From: Novacetimonas hansenii JCM 7643
GTDB lineage: Bacteria; Pseudomonadota; Alphaproteobacteria; Acetobacterales; Acetobacteraceae
Assembly: GCF_000964405.1 (NCBI RefSeq)
Contig: NZ_BANE01000061.1
Location: forward strand, 1 to 64,000
Direction of reading: 5' to 3'
Length of the DNA: 64,000 nucleotides
The position numbers and the translations under genes are program-made. Position 1 is the stretch's first letter. Each line of letters opens with the position of its first letter. The notes below the pieces were generated by a model. It had not been told where the DNA came from. It ran no database searches and worked only from the letters and a program-made list of their open reading frames with translations. Shown here piece by piece: positions 43,332 through 64,000 of this stretch.

Positions 43332-44039
43332 ATGCTGACGCGTAAACAACATGAACTCCTGCTTTATATCGACAGGCACCTGAAGCAGACCGGTTTTTCG
43401 CCGTCTTTTGACGAGATGAAAGACGCACTCGGCCTGAGGTCGAAATCCGGTATCCACCGCCTGATTTCCGCACTGGAAGAGCGTGGGTTCGTGCGGCGCA
43501 AACATCATCGCGCCCGCGCGTTGGAGGTGGTCCAGATCCCGCAGATCGAGGCGGTCGAACCGGCCAGCGCGCGTGGTGTCGACATGTTTTCCCCCACCGT
43601 CATCAAGGGAGACTTTACCCCTGCCCTTCCGGCCGTGCAGGTCGCGGATACGGCCAACGCGGTTCAGGTGCCATTCCTGGGGCGTATTGCCGCAGGCCAC
43701 GCGATTGAGGCGATCAGCGATGCATCGCGCCTGATCGACGTGCCGGCGGGCCTGATCGGGGTGGGGACCTATTATGCGTTGGAAGTCTGTGGCGATTCGA
43801 TGATCGAAGCGGGAATACTTGACGGTGATACCGTGATCGTGCGGCAGGACCGACAGGCGGAAAACGGGGAAATTGTTGTCGCCCTGATCGAGGGACAGGA
43901 GGTGACGCTCAAGCGGCTGCGTCGCAAGGGCAGCACGATCGCCCTGGAACCAGCAAATGCGCGTTACGAGACGCGCATTATGCCAGCCGACAAGGTTGCC
44001 ATACAGGGCAGCATTGCGGGGCTGATCCGGCGTTATTAA
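43332..44039 (+). CDS. lexA: SOS response repressor LexA
   Basis: A 235-aa repressor-protease. The N-terminal winged helix starts MLTRKQHELLLYIDRHLKQT; the self-cleavage site is Ala121-Gly122 in IAAGHAIEA; the Ser156/Lys194 dyad is in CGDSMIEAGI and EVTLKRLR. GGGAG lies upstream of the ATG. An SOS box overlaps its promoter. Its stop overlaps the convergent bioCD stop by 4 bp. Confidence 0.97.
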   Translation: MLTRKQHELLLYIDRHLKQTGFSPSFDEMKDALGLRSKSGIHRLISALEERGFVRRKHHRARALEVVQIPQIEAVEPASARGVDMFSPTVIKGDFTPALPAVQVADTANAVQVPFLGRIAAGHAIEAISDASRLIDVPAGLIGVGTYYALEVCGDSMIEAGILDGDTVIVRQDRQAENGEIVVALIEGQEVTLKRLRRKGSTIALEPANARYETRIMPADKVAIQGSIAGLIRRY

Positions 44040-45451
44040 GGATCGGTTTTACCGGGGCGCAGTGTCTCCCATGGTGGCACGCGATGGGCAAGCTGCGCGA
44101 CGGCCTCGGCATTTACATCTGCCAGCAGCGGGAAATCTGCAAGGATGCGGACTTTGCCATGCCGTTCGATGGCACTGCGGGCATAGGGATTGTCCGGTCC
44201 GTTCAGGACGATGCCAAGTACGGGAATATTGCGCTGATGTAGCATGGCAAGGCTGAGCAGGGTGTGATTGATCGTACCCAGGCTGCTGCGTGCCACAAGC
44301 ACTACGGGCAGGCCAAGGCGCTCCATCAGGTCAAGCATCAGGAAGTCCGTACTGATCGGCACCATGACACCCCCTGCCCCTTCCACGATCATAGGGCGGC
44401 TGTCGGGATTGTGGGGCAGGATAATCCGGTCAGGATCTATTACCTTCCCTTCGCAGGCGGCGGCATCCTCAGGGGAAAGCGGGGCCGCGTAAATTCCGGC
44501 GGGCTGATGCAGCCGTGCGGATGAGAGTTGCGCCAATGTCGCCACGCTCAGGGTATCGGCGGGTTCATCGGCAATGCCGCTTTGCAACGGTTTCCAGTAG
44601 GATGCATCCCATGCCCGCGCCAGCACGGCGCAGGTCAGTGTCTTTCCCACACCCGTATCTGTGCCCGTAACAAACACGCCGCAATTCTGGGTGCGCCGGA
44701 ATGTTCCATATGCAATATTGTAATTTACGCTGAAGGTGGCATCCCTGTCGGCCTGCTTCAGGACACGGCGCAGGCCACCTGGCAGCACTTGTGCGGTGGT
44801 GGGAACATCCGCCCCGATGGCACGCAGTTCACGTAGGAAGCTAAGCGCCGACTGTGGAACCTCTATGATTGTTTCATGGGTCCATGATCCCTTTCCTGTC
44901 CGTGGCCATTCCTGTTCAAGCATCGCAAGGTCAGGATAAACCGGCATCGGACATGGCAGGCCCAGTGTGGCGTAATATCCCCGCCATTGTGTAAAGCTGT
45001 CGCGACACAGGGTTGAGAACGCCATCACGCCTCCTGGCGACAGCAGGGCGGCCAGCCGTCGCAGGGTCTCGTGTCGTGCGCTGAACCACTGCATCGCCAT
45101 GCTGGAACAGATGAGATCGAACGGTCCCGTCAGGTCAGGCTGTTCGGCATCCATGACATGGCAGGACAAAGCCGGATCATCAAGAAACTTGGCCTGCGTC
45201 TGATGCAACATGCCTGGTGCGATATCCGTGGCCACGATCTGTGCCGCAGGAAACAGCCGACGCAGATGTTGTGTCAGGAACCCGGTTCCGCACCCTATTT
45301 CAAGGATACGTTGTGGTCCCGGTGTGGGGCAGGTCTGCGCGATCCGTTGTGCCAGTTGGCGTGCGGCAATGCGCTGGATACGTGCCACGGCGTCATAACC
45401 GGAGGCAGCGCCAAAGCTGCGGGCGATAAGCTGCTTATGCAAGGAGGTCAC
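44036..45451 (-). CDS. bioCD: Fused BioC-BioD: malonyl-ACP methyltransferase plus dethiobiotin synthetase
   Basis: A 471-aa two-domain protein. Residues 1 to about 250 are BioC: SAM motif ILEIGCGTGFLTQHL (49-63), ATDIAPGM and CSSMAMQWF, predicted to methylate malonyl-ACP and start pimelate synthesis. Residues about 258-471 are BioD: P-loop GTDTGVGKT (263-271), KPLQSG (287-292), VEGAGGVMVPI and LVARSSLGTINH, which makes dethiobiotin from DAPA. The frame is continuous with no stop, so it is a real fusion joining the first and penultimate steps. The GTG start overlaps the bioH-like stop (GTGA). The 3' end overlaps lexA convergently. Confidence 0.92.
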   Translation of the reverse strand: MTSLHKQLIARSFGAASGYDAVARIQRIAARQLAQRIAQTCPTPGPQRILEIGCGTGFLTQHLRRLFPAAQIVATDIAPGMLHQTQAKFLDDPALSCHVMDAEQPDLTGPFDLICSSMAMQWFSARHETLRRLAALLSPGGVMAFSTLCRDSFTQWRGYYATLGLPCPMPVYPDLAMLEQEWPRTGKGSWTHETIIEVPQSALSFLRELRAIGADVPTTAQVLPGGLRRVLKQADRDATFSVNYNIAYGTFRRTQNCGVFVTGTDTGVGKTLTCAVLARAWDASYWKPLQSGIADEPADTLSVATLAQLSSARLHQPAGIYAAPLSPEDAAACEGKVIDPDRIILPHNPDSRPMIVEGAGGVMVPISTDFLMLDLMERLGLPVVLVARSSLGTINHTLLSLAMLHQRNIPVLGIVLNGPDNPYARSAIERHGKVRILADFPLLADVNAEAVAQLAHRVPPWETLRPGKTDP

Positions 45452-46101
45452 GGCGTCATACGTTTCATCATGTGGTCGATGGCCTGCAGGCAGGCATCAG
45501 GATGCGTCAGGGGCAGCAGGTGTCCGCCATCGTGCCATTCAATGGTGGTTGCAGGCGCAAAGGAACCCTGCGTCAGGGGTGGCGGTGCAATGGGATCACC
45601 TGTGCCAGCGATACAGGATACGGGACAATGGGCCATGCGCATATCCTGCCGTGCATCAAGCGTCAGTAGCTGGTGCAGTCCATCATGCAGGCGTTGGGGA
45701 TGCGACGGCCCGGGCAATGGCAGATCGGTTCCGGCTTTCTGCCGGAAATCACGTACCGTGTCATCCGGGGCGGTTGCAAGCTTTCGCGCCATTCGGGTCA
45801 GCAGGCGTGGCGGAACACCATGGGGAAAATCATCGGACGCGGTAAAACGGGCAAAACCGTTGATCAGTACCATCCCGCGGCAATGTTGCGGCATTGTAGA
45901 GAGAAGCCATAACGCCCCAAGCGAATGGCCGATCGCGATGAATGGCCTTTGTGGCGTTTCAGTCTGCGCGACGGAAGAAAAATAACCGAAATCAAGCATC
46001 TGGCATGTATGGTTCGGGCGTGCCGCCCGGATCTGGTCCCAGATTTCCGGTCCGAAGGCCCATCCATGCACAAAGACCAGAGGCAGGTCAGTCGCGGGCA
46101 T
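45448..46101 (-). CDS. bioH: Alpha/beta hydrolase, BioH-like pimeloyl-ACP methyl ester esterase
   Basis: A 217-aa alpha/beta hydrolase. It starts LPLVFVHGWAFGPEIWDQI, like BioH. The predicted triad is Ser60 (IGHSLG), Asp169 (GTGDP) and His194 (DGGHLLPL). It is about 40 residues shorter than E. coli BioH, mainly in the lid region. Its place between bioF and bioCD, overlapping them by 14 and 4 bp, makes removal of the methyl group from pimeloyl-ACP the likely job. Non-orthologous esterases (BioG, BioK and others) also occupy this slot in other bacteria, so the symbol is functional, not phylogenetic. Confidence 0.78.
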   Translation of the reverse strand: MPATDLPLVFVHGWAFGPEIWDQIRAARPNHTCQMLDFGYFSSVAQTETPQRPFIAIGHSLGALWLLSTMPQHCRGMVLINGFARFTASDDFPHGVPPRLLTRMARKLATAPDDTVRDFRQKAGTDLPLPGPSHPQRLHDGLHQLLTLDARQDMRMAHCPVSCIAGTGDPIAPPPLTQGSFAPATTIEWHDGGHLLPLTHPDACLQAIDHMMKRMTP

Positions 46102-47332
46102 GTCGCGTCTCCTGTGCGGCGGTCCTGATGGCTGCGATCAATGTTGCAATCATCGCATCATCATGGGCGGCGCTCAGGGCAAGTCGGATACGGCTGCCGT
46201 TCGGCGGGACCGAGGGGGGACGGATGGGAATGCCCAGAATCCCTTCACGCGCCAGAATGGCGGCAAAATCCATGGTACGGGGTGTATCCCCGATTTCGAT
46301 GGGAATGATCTGGGTGTTTGATGCACCGGTGGACAGGCCGCATTCATGGATTGCCTGCCGGACGGTCCGGGCATTCTCCTGCAGGCGCCGTCGCTGTGTC
46401 TCCATCAACGGCACGAGTTCCAGCGCAGCATCAATCGCCCCAAGGTTCGCAGGGGGCAGCGCGGTGGTATAGACAAAGCCGGAGCAGCAGTTGGACAGCC
46501 ATTCGCACAGTGCGCGTGATCCCGCGACATAGGCCCCGAAACTGCCCATAGCCTTGCTGAAGGTGCCCATCACCAGATCGACCCCATGTGCATGGGCCGC
46601 TTGTGAACCCGCCTCTTGTGAAACAGCATCATGCGTCAGGCCCGACAGCCCCCGCCCCTGTGGCCCAAGCACGCCCGTCGCGTGGGCTTCGTCCAGGTAT
46701 AAGAAAGCATCATACGCGTCGGCCAGCGCACGCAACGCCAGTATGTCAACACGGTCTCCATCCATGCTGAAGACGCTTTCGGTGACGATGAAGCGCATGC
46801 CCGGCCGGTCACGGTGGGTTTCCAGAAGTGTCGAGAGATGATCAAGGTCGTTATGACGGAAGCGGATCTGGCGGATGCCTGCGGCCTGGCAGCCATGATG
46901 CAGGCTGGCGTGGTTCAGGCGGTCGGTAAAAACCAGCGGTGCCTCGCCCGTCCGGGCTGTGGCAAGGCGGCATAAGGCCGGTAGGACGGATGCATTCGCC
47001 TGCCAGCCGGATGCGAACAGCAAGGCCGCCTGTGTCTGCTTGAAATCCGCCAGCCGCGCTTCGACCTGCCGATGGGCGGGGGTTGTGCCGCTGACCAGGC
47101 GCGATGCACCGCTGCCGCTGCCCCATCTATGCCCCCACTCGCAGGCGCGCTCGATGAGGAGTGGATGATGCGCAAGGCCAAGATAGTCGTTGGAGGAAAA
47201 GTCCAGCAACATCTGTCCGTCGCGCATGATCGTCACGGCGTCGCGGTGGGTAATGGTCGCCGGCGTCCTGCGTATGCCGTCCTGTTCCAACGTATTCAGC
47301 GCCGTCTGGAAAAAAATATCAAAACGCGTCAT
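46088..47332 (-). CDS. bioF: 8-amino-7-oxononanoate synthase
   Basis: A 414-aa PLP enzyme that condenses pimeloyl-ACP and alanine to KAPA. Signatures: LDFSSNDYLGLAHHP, GSGASRLVSGTTPAH, DEAHATGVLGPQGRG and the Schiff-base Lys (about residue 260) in GTFSKAMGSFG. The start at 47332 has GAGGA at 6 nt; an ATG 13 codons upstream (47371) is less likely. It is the first gene of bioF-bioH-bioCD, divergent from bioA. Confidence 0.95.
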   Translation of the reverse strand: MTRFDIFFQTALNTLEQDGIRRTPATITHRDAVTIMRDGQMLLDFSSNDYLGLAHHPLLIERACEWGHRWGSGSGASRLVSGTTPAHRQVEARLADFKQTQAALLFASGWQANASVLPALCRLATARTGEAPLVFTDRLNHASLHHGCQAAGIRQIRFRHNDLDHLSTLLETHRDRPGMRFIVTESVFSMDGDRVDILALRALADAYDAFLYLDEAHATGVLGPQGRGLSGLTHDAVSQEAGSQAAHAHGVDLVMGTFSKAMGSFGAYVAGSRALCEWLSNCCSGFVYTTALPPANLGAIDAALELVPLMETQRRRLQENARTVRQAIHECGLSTGASNTQIIPIEIGDTPRTMDFAAILAREGILGIPIRPPSVPPNGSRIRLALSAAHDDAMIATLIAAIRTAAQETRHARD

Positions 47333-47347
47333 GAAGCGTCCTCTCCT

Positions 47348-47368
47348 GCCGATGGCTGCTGCATCGGC
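47348..47368. promoter_or_regulatory. Inverted repeat in the bioF/bioA divergent promoter
   Basis: GCCGATG, 7-nt spacer, CATCGGC: a perfect 7-bp inverted repeat within the 71-nt gap between the bioF and bioA starts. It is well placed to bind a dimeric repressor controlling both directions. It does not match the BioR (TTATMKATAA) pattern I know, nor an obvious BirA operator. Confidence 0.45.
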
Positions 47369-47403
47369 CAATCATGCCTGTCCCAATATCACGGAGAACC
47401 CGC

Positions 47404-48675
47404 ATGCGTGGACCCCAATGGCTGGATGACGGCATGCCGCACATCTGGCTGCCCTATACACAGATGAAGACGGTCCTGCCTCCCCTTCCTGCGGTCAGCA
47501 CGTCAGGCTGTGATATTCATCTGGCGGATGGACGTATCCTGACCGATGGCATCGCATCATGGTGGACGGCCTGTCATGGGTATAACCATCCCCACATCCG
47601 CGCGGCTGTCAGTGCGCAACTGTCACGTATGCCCCATGTCATGTTCGGTGGTCTGGTGCATGAACCTGCGCTGATGCTTGCGGCACGGCTGGCGGAAATG
47701 TTGCCAGGGGATCTGGAGCGGGTATTTTTTACCGATTCAGGTTCCGTCGCGGTAGAGGTCGCCATCAAGATTGCGATCCAGTACTGGATCAATCGTGGCG
47801 TTGCGCGTCGCAATCGGCTGGTGGCGTTCAAGGGAGGGTATCATGGTGATACACTGGCCACCATGGCAGTCTGCGATCCCGAAGAGGGGATGCATGCGCT
47901 GTTCAGCGGTGTCCTGCCACAGCATTATATCGTGGATCTGCCCCATGACGATGCCACGTTCGCAGCACTTGAGACATTCTTGTCCGAATCGGGCGATGGG
48001 ATTGCTGCGATTCTGGTGGAACCTCTCGTGCAGGGAGCCGGCGGGATGCTGTTCCATGGGCCGGAGGTGCTGCGGCGGCTGCGTCTTTTGGCGGACAGGT
48101 ACAATATCCTGTTAGTGTTCGACGAAATTTTTACCGGATTTGGCCGTACCGGTACCATGTTCGCCTGCGAACAGGCCGATGTCGTGCCAGATATCATAAC
48201 CTTGTCAAAGGCACTGACGGCAGGAACCATGCCGCTGGCGGCAACAGTGACGCGTGCCCATGTGTTCGAAGCCTTCCTGTCGGATAATCCGTTACATGCG
48301 CTGATGCATGGTCCGACATTCATGGCCAATCCCCTTGCCTGTGCCTGCGCGAATGCGTCACTTGACCTGTTCAGGACGGAACCCCGCCTGCAACAGGTCG
48401 CGCGCATCAGTGAACAGATGACGCACGAATTGGAGGCGTGTCGCGGCCTGCCAAATGTGCGCGATGTGCGTGTCCTTGGCGGTGTGGGAGTTGTGGAACT
48501 GGCGACGATCGCGGATATGAACCGGCTGAAAGCCGCCCTGATCGCGTTGGGGGTATGGGTGCGCCCATTCCGCACCATCATTTACCTGACACCGGCCTTT
48601 GTCATGCGTCCCGACGAACTGTCACGTCTGACCTCGGCCATCGTGCGCGTCATACGTGATGGCGCGGCAGGCTAG
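47404..48675 (+). CDS. bioA: Adenosylmethionine-8-amino-7-oxononanoate aminotransferase
   Basis: A 423-aa class III aminotransferase that converts KAPA to DAPA with SAM as amino donor. It begins with WLDDGMPHIWLPYTQM, typical of BioA; WWTACHGYNHPHI, FTDSGSVAVEVAIKIA and FDEIFTGFGRTG follow; Lys269 in LSKALTAG is the PLP lysine. GGAG lies 7 nt before the ATG at 47404; an upstream ATG (47374) lacks a ribosome site. It is divergent from bioF. Confidence 0.95.
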   Translation: MRGPQWLDDGMPHIWLPYTQMKTVLPPLPAVSTSGCDIHLADGRILTDGIASWWTACHGYNHPHIRAAVSAQLSRMPHVMFGGLVHEPALMLAARLAEMLPGDLERVFFTDSGSVAVEVAIKIAIQYWINRGVARRNRLVAFKGGYHGDTLATMAVCDPEEGMHALFSGVLPQHYIVDLPHDDATFAALETFLSESGDGIAAILVEPLVQGAGGMLFHGPEVLRRLRLLADRYNILLVFDEIFTGFGRTGTMFACEQADVVPDIITLSKALTAGTMPLAATVTRAHVFEAFLSDNPLHALMHGPTFMANPLACACANASLDLFRTEPRLQQVARISEQMTHELEACRGLPNVRDVRVLGGVGVVELATIADMNRLKAALIALGVWVRPFRTIIYLTPAFVMRPDELSRLTSAIVRVIRDGAAG

Positions 48676-63374: not shown

Positions 63375-64000
63375 ATGGAGACGCCGATAATTTTTGACCG
63401 TCATGCCGTGCGCCTGCATCGGGATCGTGCGCGCAACTCGTTGCAGCGGGTACAGCCCATCATACAGGCGGCCGCAGATCGGCTTTTGGACCGGCTTGAT
63501 GATACGACGCACCGGTTTTCCCATGCGCTGGATATTGGGGGCCGTGGGGTAAGTGCCCCCATGTTGAGGGCGCGTGGAATCGAGGTCGTGGCCACGGATC
63601 TCTCCCCTGCCCTGTGCGCGCGTGAACCCGGTCCATGCGTCTGTATGGACGAGGAATGGCTTCCCTTCGGGGCGGGGACCTTCGATCTCGTCATCGCCAA
63701 TCTGTCGCTACATTGGGTTAATGACCTGCCTGGCACGCTGGTGCAGATACGCAATATCCTGCGTCCTGACGGACTGTTTCTGGCATGTATGCCGATCCTG
63801 CCCACACTGGCGGAATTGCGTCAGGCACTGATTGTAGCGGAACATGACCTGCTGGGTGGGGCGTCGGTGCGGATTTCACCGTTCCCGGGACTGCGCGATT
63901 GTGCGGCCCTGTTGCAGCGGGCTGGATTCGCATTGCCTGTCGCCGATTCGGATGTCATTGAACTGGCTTATCGCTCGCCGATGATGTTGCTGCGTGATCT
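63375..64000 (+). CDS. SAM-dependent methyltransferase, 5' part (BioC/NDUFAF5-like), truncated by window end
   Basis: An open frame from ATG 63375 (or 63357) runs to the window edge, over 208 codons without a stop. It starts METPIIFDRHAVRLHRDRAR, then a class I SAM core: HALDIGGRGVSAPML (a weak motif I, GGRG instead of GCGTG), VVATDLSP, WLPFGAGTFDLVIANLSLHWVNDLPGTL and IRNILRPDGLFLACM. This matches the NDUFAF5/BioC-like methyltransferase family commonly next to comF-grxC in Alphaproteobacteria. The second Gly-Cys of motif I is replaced, as in some NDUFAF5-type hydroxylases. Divergent from comF. Confidence 0.75.
   Translation, partial: METPIIFDRHAVRLHRDRARNSLQRVQPIIQAAADRLLDRLDDTTHRFSHALDIGGRGVSAPMLRARGIEVVATDLSPALCAREPGPCVCMDEEWLPFGAGTFDLVIANLSLHWVNDLPGTLVQIRNILRPDGLFLACMPILPTLAELRQALIVAEHDLLGGASVRISPFPGLRDCAALLQRAGFALPVADSDVIELAYRSPMMLLRD

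Follow-up and report, generated by a model that had tools for sequence, protein, structure and literature searches.

The biotin gene cluster of Novacetimonas hansenii JCM 7643 contains bioCD, a real and conserved gene that joins a BioC-type methyltransferase and a BioD-type dethiobiotin synthetase in one chain. The fusion is regular in Novacetimonas and its near relatives. Fusions of biotin enzymes are a known kind of protein, and the pairing of partners in this one is new. We consider it very probable that bioCD came from fusion of bioC and bioD inside their operon and encodes one bifunctional enzyme, with co-translation and 1:1 dosage, rather than channelling, as what the fusion provides.

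The fused gene and its two domains

In the window (the whole 64,000-nt stretch of DNA that we analysed, from a 3.71 Mb draft genome of 467 contigs), bioCD lies on the minus strand at 45451..44036 as an uninterrupted frame of 471 codons, with a GTG start codon at 45451 and a TAA stop codon at 44036-44038; stops are present in plus-strand frame 1 across the same interval. A first, sequence-only reading of this DNA had described a single 471-codon frame here, with the motif ILEIGCGTG at residues 49-57 and the P-loop GTDTGVGKT at residues 263-271 of the fused protein, and it was right about the frame and both motif positions, though it gave no strand. Further along the chain, KPLQSG occupies residues 287-292 and VEGAGG residues 356-361. 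The BioC-type SAM methyltransferase domain (44693..45451, minus strand) covers approximately residues 1-253, as drawn from TIGR02072 and from the fold match, and the BioD domain (44039..44680, minus strand), with the P-loop, K287 and VEGAGG, covers residues 258-471. The linker between them (44681..44692, minus strand), of approximately residues 254-257, was placed by the secondary structure of the model presented below and is variable in alignment. From these assignments, bioCD is predicted to encode a malonyl-ACP O-methyltransferase and dethiobiotin synthetase.

Both halves of the protein were recognised by profile models. Among NCBIfam profiles, the BioC model TIGR02072 matched residues 15-252 with 161 bits (E=4.1e-47), about twice the score of the runner-up on this half, which is also a BioC model (78 bits), and Pfam methyltransferase domains were found on the N-terminal half as well. 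The bioD model TIGR00347 matched residues 260-417 with 131.7 bits (E=2.6e-38), above its cut-off of 83.3, and the Pfam family AAA_26 matched residues 258-449 (E=4.7e-60). Across the genome, bioCD scored 206.2 bits on AAA_26 and the next two matches 59.8 and 34.6 bits, both of them over the general AAA_26 cut-off. The BioD half also aligned to E. coli BioD (phmmer), with the P-loop, the KPxxSG lysine and the VEGAGG glutamate conserved. As far as the sequence goes, chance is excluded as the source of both domain matches, and these matches support the earlier view that enzymes of two non-consecutive steps, BioC-type and BioD, are carried on one chain. That view had also called both of them full enzymes, which is slightly too strong for BioC by score alone, the 161 bits being under the curated TIGR02072 equivalog cut-off of 184.95. 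At the same time, this shortfall says little, because the cut-off was passed in just 1 of 14 control genomes, and the domain can still be assigned to BioC on the strength of its fold, gene context and conserved residues.

An alignment of 23 fused proteins (the window protein plus those of 22 fused loci, out of 26 among the best 80 matches, with L007, L012, L017 and L020 omitted) revealed invariant residues in both halves, namely E51, G53, C54, G55, T56, G57 and D76 in the BioC half and K270, T271, K287, D299 and E357 in the BioD half, all of which we take to have catalytic roles. An AlphaFold2 model of the fused protein, made with this alignment as input, had a mean pLDDT of 89.2 and a pTM of 0.80, and in it just four residues (254-257) are predicted to separate the last BioC strand from the first BioD strand. 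The top match of the model among solved structures was BioC (8x8j_A, TM by target 0.78; 8x8i is also BioC), and the best-ranked dethiobiotin synthetases matched it with a TM by target of 0.75-0.81; non-BioC methyltransferases ranked high in the fold search too (for example, OxaG at rank 4). BioD is a homodimer with its active site at the interface, and the fused protein may likewise dimerise through its BioD domain.

Another methyltransferase gene is found at the edge of the window (63426-64000, running past the window end; L088 1432-2346). Its product of 304 aa scored 86.6 bits on the BioC model and is probably not BioC, and the gene beside it is presumably comF-like.

Operon context and the rest of the pathway

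The route to biotin opens with methylation of malonyl-ACP by BioC. Pimeloyl-ACP is reached after two rounds of elongation and the action of BioH; BioF and BioA then convert it to DAPA, whose ureido ring is closed by BioD. The genes around the fusion stand in the order bioA (divergent), bioF, a bioH-like gene, bioCD and then a convergent lexA. The bioH-like gene (45448..46101, minus strand) encodes an alpha/beta hydrolase, a putative pimeloyl-ACP methyl ester esterase, that scored 60.9 bits on TIGR01738 (cut-off 206.95); its stop overlaps the start of bioCD by 4 bp (GTGA), and the overlap between bioF and this gene is 14 bp. The 8-amino-7-oxononanoate synthase gene bioF (46088..47371, minus strand) scored 407.3 bits on TIGR00858, just under the cut-off of 426.45, and its true start is probably the ATG near 47332. 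Divergent from it, bioA (47374..48675, plus strand) scored 533 bits on TIGR00508, above the cut-off of 405, with a true start that is probably the ATG near 47434. At the other end of the cluster, lexA (43332..44039, plus strand; 177.3 bits on TIGR00498, above the cut-off of 110.95) overlaps the end of bioCD by 4 bp and is outside the biotin pathway. A bioB gene is present on another contig of the genome (399.8 bits, above cut-off), and a biotin-protein ligase gene is present elsewhere in the genome. With bioCD, the bioH-like gene, bioF, bioA and bioB all present, every dedicated step of the BioC-BioH route therefore has a candidate gene, although the bioH-like gene scored far under the cut-off of its model.

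The same context was seen in other loci with the fusion. Both bioF and a bioH-like gene were upstream of bioCD in 49 of 53 distinct fused loci (a count for which the short locus taken from the window excludes its bioF, although bioF is present in the window), and a bioH-like gene was upstream in 50 of the 53. Of the 52 rows in which bioC and bioD are unfused neighbours, 42 had both of these genes upstream.

Selection on both halves

Both halves of bioCD look to be under purifying selection. In five pairwise comparisons (with dS >1 in two of them), dN/dS was 0.20-0.22 for the BioC half and 0.11-0.21 for the BioD half. When the window gene was compared with those of three congeners, the values were 0.22, 0.22 and 0.22 for BioC and 0.11, 0.16 and 0.11 for BioD; in one of the five comparisons, BioD was not slower than BioC (0.214 vs 0.197). 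The linker stretch, with seven codons, was too short for a useful dN/dS.

These values bear on a different reading of the gene, in which BioD alone works, the BioC half survives as a relic or serves as a scaffold, and methylation is left to another enzyme. Such a reading could appeal to the sub-cut-off TIGR02072 score of the BioC half, to its faster evolution relative to BioD between the window and the three congeners, and to the further match to the BioC model in the genome (86.6 bits). We find it improbable, as the BioC half kept its low dN/dS in all five comparisons, the SAM-motif residues are invariant in the 23 fused proteins, a bioH-like gene sits upstream in most fused loci, BioC is the best fold match, and a cut-off that so few control genomes pass is a poor guide here. 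We infer instead that both halves are catalytically active.

Distribution of the fusion

Frequencies were taken from three samples, of the family (200 genomes), the class (387) and the phylum (397); the named records (best 80 of the matches listed) and the loci were gathered by similarity to the window protein, and counts among them are not unbiased frequencies. Among the matches listed, 32 of the 200 sampled Acetobacteraceae genomes carry the gene as a single uninterrupted frame; 17 fetched genomes of the family have bioC and bioD separate and adjacent, and the other 151 are unclassed. All 4 sampled Novacetimonas genomes have the fused frame. A recheck at the DNA level found a single frame in all 31 of these fused family genomes that were fetched and in the window, with junctions that are related and non-identical. 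At the wider levels, 5 of 387 class genomes and, among the matches listed, 5 of 397 phylum genomes had the gene uninterrupted, and these are the same five, all of them Acetobacteraceae. The remaining matches to both halves in the class and phylum samples have one or two in-frame stops. In G379, the only one whose stop position was inspected, the stop falls between two separate genes: bioC and bioD are in the same frame, with the stop and a few codons between them (L147, G379:C2:14000-22000; genome size 1.3 Mb, same class).

The named records with the fused gene come from Novacetimonas, Komagataeibacter, Gluconacetobacter, Acetobacter, Azospirillum and an uncultured Commensalibacter, the closest to the window protein among the named-record matches listed being Gluconacetobacter entanii (77%) and Novacetimonas maltaceti (75%). 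Outside the Alphaproteobacteria, the fused gene is carried by Pigmentiphaga and other Burkholderiales (L021, L023, L024 and L026), at 46-48% identity to the window protein. The surmise that the fusion may exist in other lineages was thus borne out in several named genera, Burkholderiales included, and the protein search for the two-domain architecture that had been proposed along with it found the same single frame in many relatives. On the other hand, the sequence-only reading had taken bioCD for an unusual gene in an otherwise standard bioF-bioH cluster, which does not agree with its frequency in the family sample or with the bioF and bioH-like genes found upstream of it in 49 fused loci.

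In Azospirillum argentinense, the order bioF - alpha/beta hydrolase - bioCD - bioA - bioB was found on a 0.7 Mb plasmid (L155, NZ_CP032324.1 185809-197089).

Origin of the fused gene

For the history of the fusion we used a tree of 105 rows, 53 fused and 52 with separate adjacent genes (adjacent meaning within 400 bases). L034 and L154 (too short), the duplicates L095, L096, L098, L101, L112, L143, L144 and L153, and L087 (the window locus again) were left out, as were loci having one half, halves far apart or halves on opposite strands. The best tree requires 8 switches between the fused and the separate state, and starred (well-supported) branches force at least 3; a switch counted in this way may be a fusion or a later split, and support is weak on several deep branches. 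An arrangement with all fused rows on one side of a branch was rejected (AU p=0.00157, for the quick tree and the model used). The long branches, L125, L137 and L124 among others, are uncertainly placed.

In 46 of the 52 separate-adjacent rows the two genes lie in different reading frames, and a start codon allowing a 4-bp overlap is available in 30 of the 52. From such an out-of-frame, overlapping arrangement, a single small indel could be enough to join the two genes (or, in the opposite direction, to split them), and we suggest that the fusion may have arisen by this route. The fused gene of the Burkholderiales could stem either from transfer or from an independent fusion; the rows of the tree include no separate bioC-bioD pair labelled betaproteobacterial.

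One row, L142 (G136:C1:114000-122000), comes from a small-genome member of the family and has bioD matches in two frames, at residues 258-327 and 314-468, through either decay or a sequencing error. It was kept as a separate row, with a listed bioD match that starts at residue 315 and is split over two frames.

Proposed function

We propose that the N-terminal BioC domain would carry out SAM-dependent methylation of malonyl-ACP, opening pimelate synthesis, and that the C-terminal BioD domain would close the dethiobiotin ureido ring with ATP and CO2. The ancestral source would be adjacent, often overlapping bioC and bioD genes in an operon of the order bioF-bioH-bioC-bioD. What their fusion would mainly bring is co-translation in fixed 1:1 proportion in place of translational coupling, and equal dosage is the rationale that we infer for it. 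Channelling is unlikely, because fatty-acid elongation, BioH, BioF and BioA stand between the two steps, which share no metabolite. Translational coupling based on gene overlap has been argued to set the ratios of the esterase, BioC and BioF (PMC3494674), and by analogy the fusion would be a stronger form of it.

The retention of the fusion in many species and in more than one lineage, and the shortness of the linker that runs from the last strand of BioC into BioD, would also fit a chain that passes a regulatory signal, such that the ligand state of BioD affects BioC. There is a small chance that occupancy of BioD by substrate, nucleotide or product could alter BioC through the linker of about four residues; if true, the late ring-forming step would feed back on the first dedicated step of biotin synthesis, and the chain would be more than a dosage device. 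Against this, 17 of the fetched family genomes have separate adjacent genes, and the state changes on well-supported branches might fit a nearly neutral trait, so that we give the regulatory reading little credence and prefer fixed dosage as the consequence of the fusion.

One product or two

A bifunctional enzyme presupposes that the chain stays whole. The window gene has an in-frame GTG at codon 259, at which translation could start internally, and the fused chain could then act as two proteins, as it could after proteolysis. However, the two nearest relatives have GTT and GTC at codon 259, and GTG is used there in 26 of 53 fused genes, compared with 21 of 53 for the valine codon two positions further along. 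An SD-like 4-mer precedes codon 259 in 3 of the 53, and within the junction (codons 250-262 of the 53 fused genes) we found no conserved start codon from which BioD could be made on its own. With about four residues in the model, the linker also leaves little room for a protease site. We therefore regard two separate products as very unlikely and, given the unconserved start at codon 259 and the rarity of the SD-like 4-mer, expect one protein of roughly 51 kDa.

The idea that an assembly frameshift or missed stop joined two genes in this one draft assembly, which the sequence-only reading had tied to a sequencing error near codons 245-258, can be rejected with next to no doubt, as independent genomes share the uninterrupted frame (31 further genomes of the 200, among the matches listed, with their DNA rechecked) and an Azospirillum plasmid record annotates the fused frame as one CDS.

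Relation to known biotin-enzyme fusions

Several natural fusions of biotin enzymes have been described. A BioG-BioC fusion of Bacteroides fragilis was shown to stand in for both enzymes in E. coli; the authors comment that the steps are non-consecutive, and relatives have the two genes separately (PMC3494674). Like that protein, bioCD puts BioC and another biotin enzyme in one chain without a stop; unlike it, the partner is not the esterase BioG but a BioD domain, which is C-terminal and would act at a much later step. The BioHC fusions of Cellvibrio japonicus and Saccharophagus degradans (PMC9894557) are likewise natural biotin-gene fusions containing BioC, whereas here BioH is encoded by a separate, overlapping upstream gene. 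A fusion of DAPA aminotransferase and dethiobiotin synthetase, said to be confined to plants and fungi (PMC10829540), also joins a BioD-type domain to another biotin enzyme, but it unites consecutive steps, and the partner in bioCD is BioC. BioWF is a further di-domain biotin enzyme (PMC9544090).

The nearest unfused counterpart is the separate tandem bioC-bioD pair, as in the E. coli bio operon (PMC3494674), which has the same enzymes in the same order and, in the 30 rows given above, the possibility of a 4-bp overlap. It differs in making two proteins rather than one, from genes that are mostly out of frame with each other (46 of 52 rows). An E. coli plasmid record (L157, CP061261.1 27410-32669) carries a bioB...bioD...uvrB segment that resembles the chromosome; its PLSDB gene table, which is incomplete, lists neither a bioC nor a bioF CDS.

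We found no description of a BioC-BioD fusion in the open literature, which was partly examined, most subscription papers being outside it. As a departure from the known pathway, the gene is neat but small. It extends the natural biotin-enzyme fusions by one more pairing of partners, and it offers a clean test of whether fusing non-consecutive enzymes of a pathway brings a benefit beyond that of operon order.

The fusion also has a bearing on annotation. In the gene table of the Azospirillum plasmid, the fused CDS (469 codons) is named just bioD, dethiobiotin synthase, and for the seven Azospirillum plasmid matches listed first the sole name is dethiobiotin synthase, plus that of a neighbouring bioA in some. 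Because of this naming, and because the BioC half falls under the NCBI cut-off, automated pathway reconstructions may call such bacteria bioC-less.
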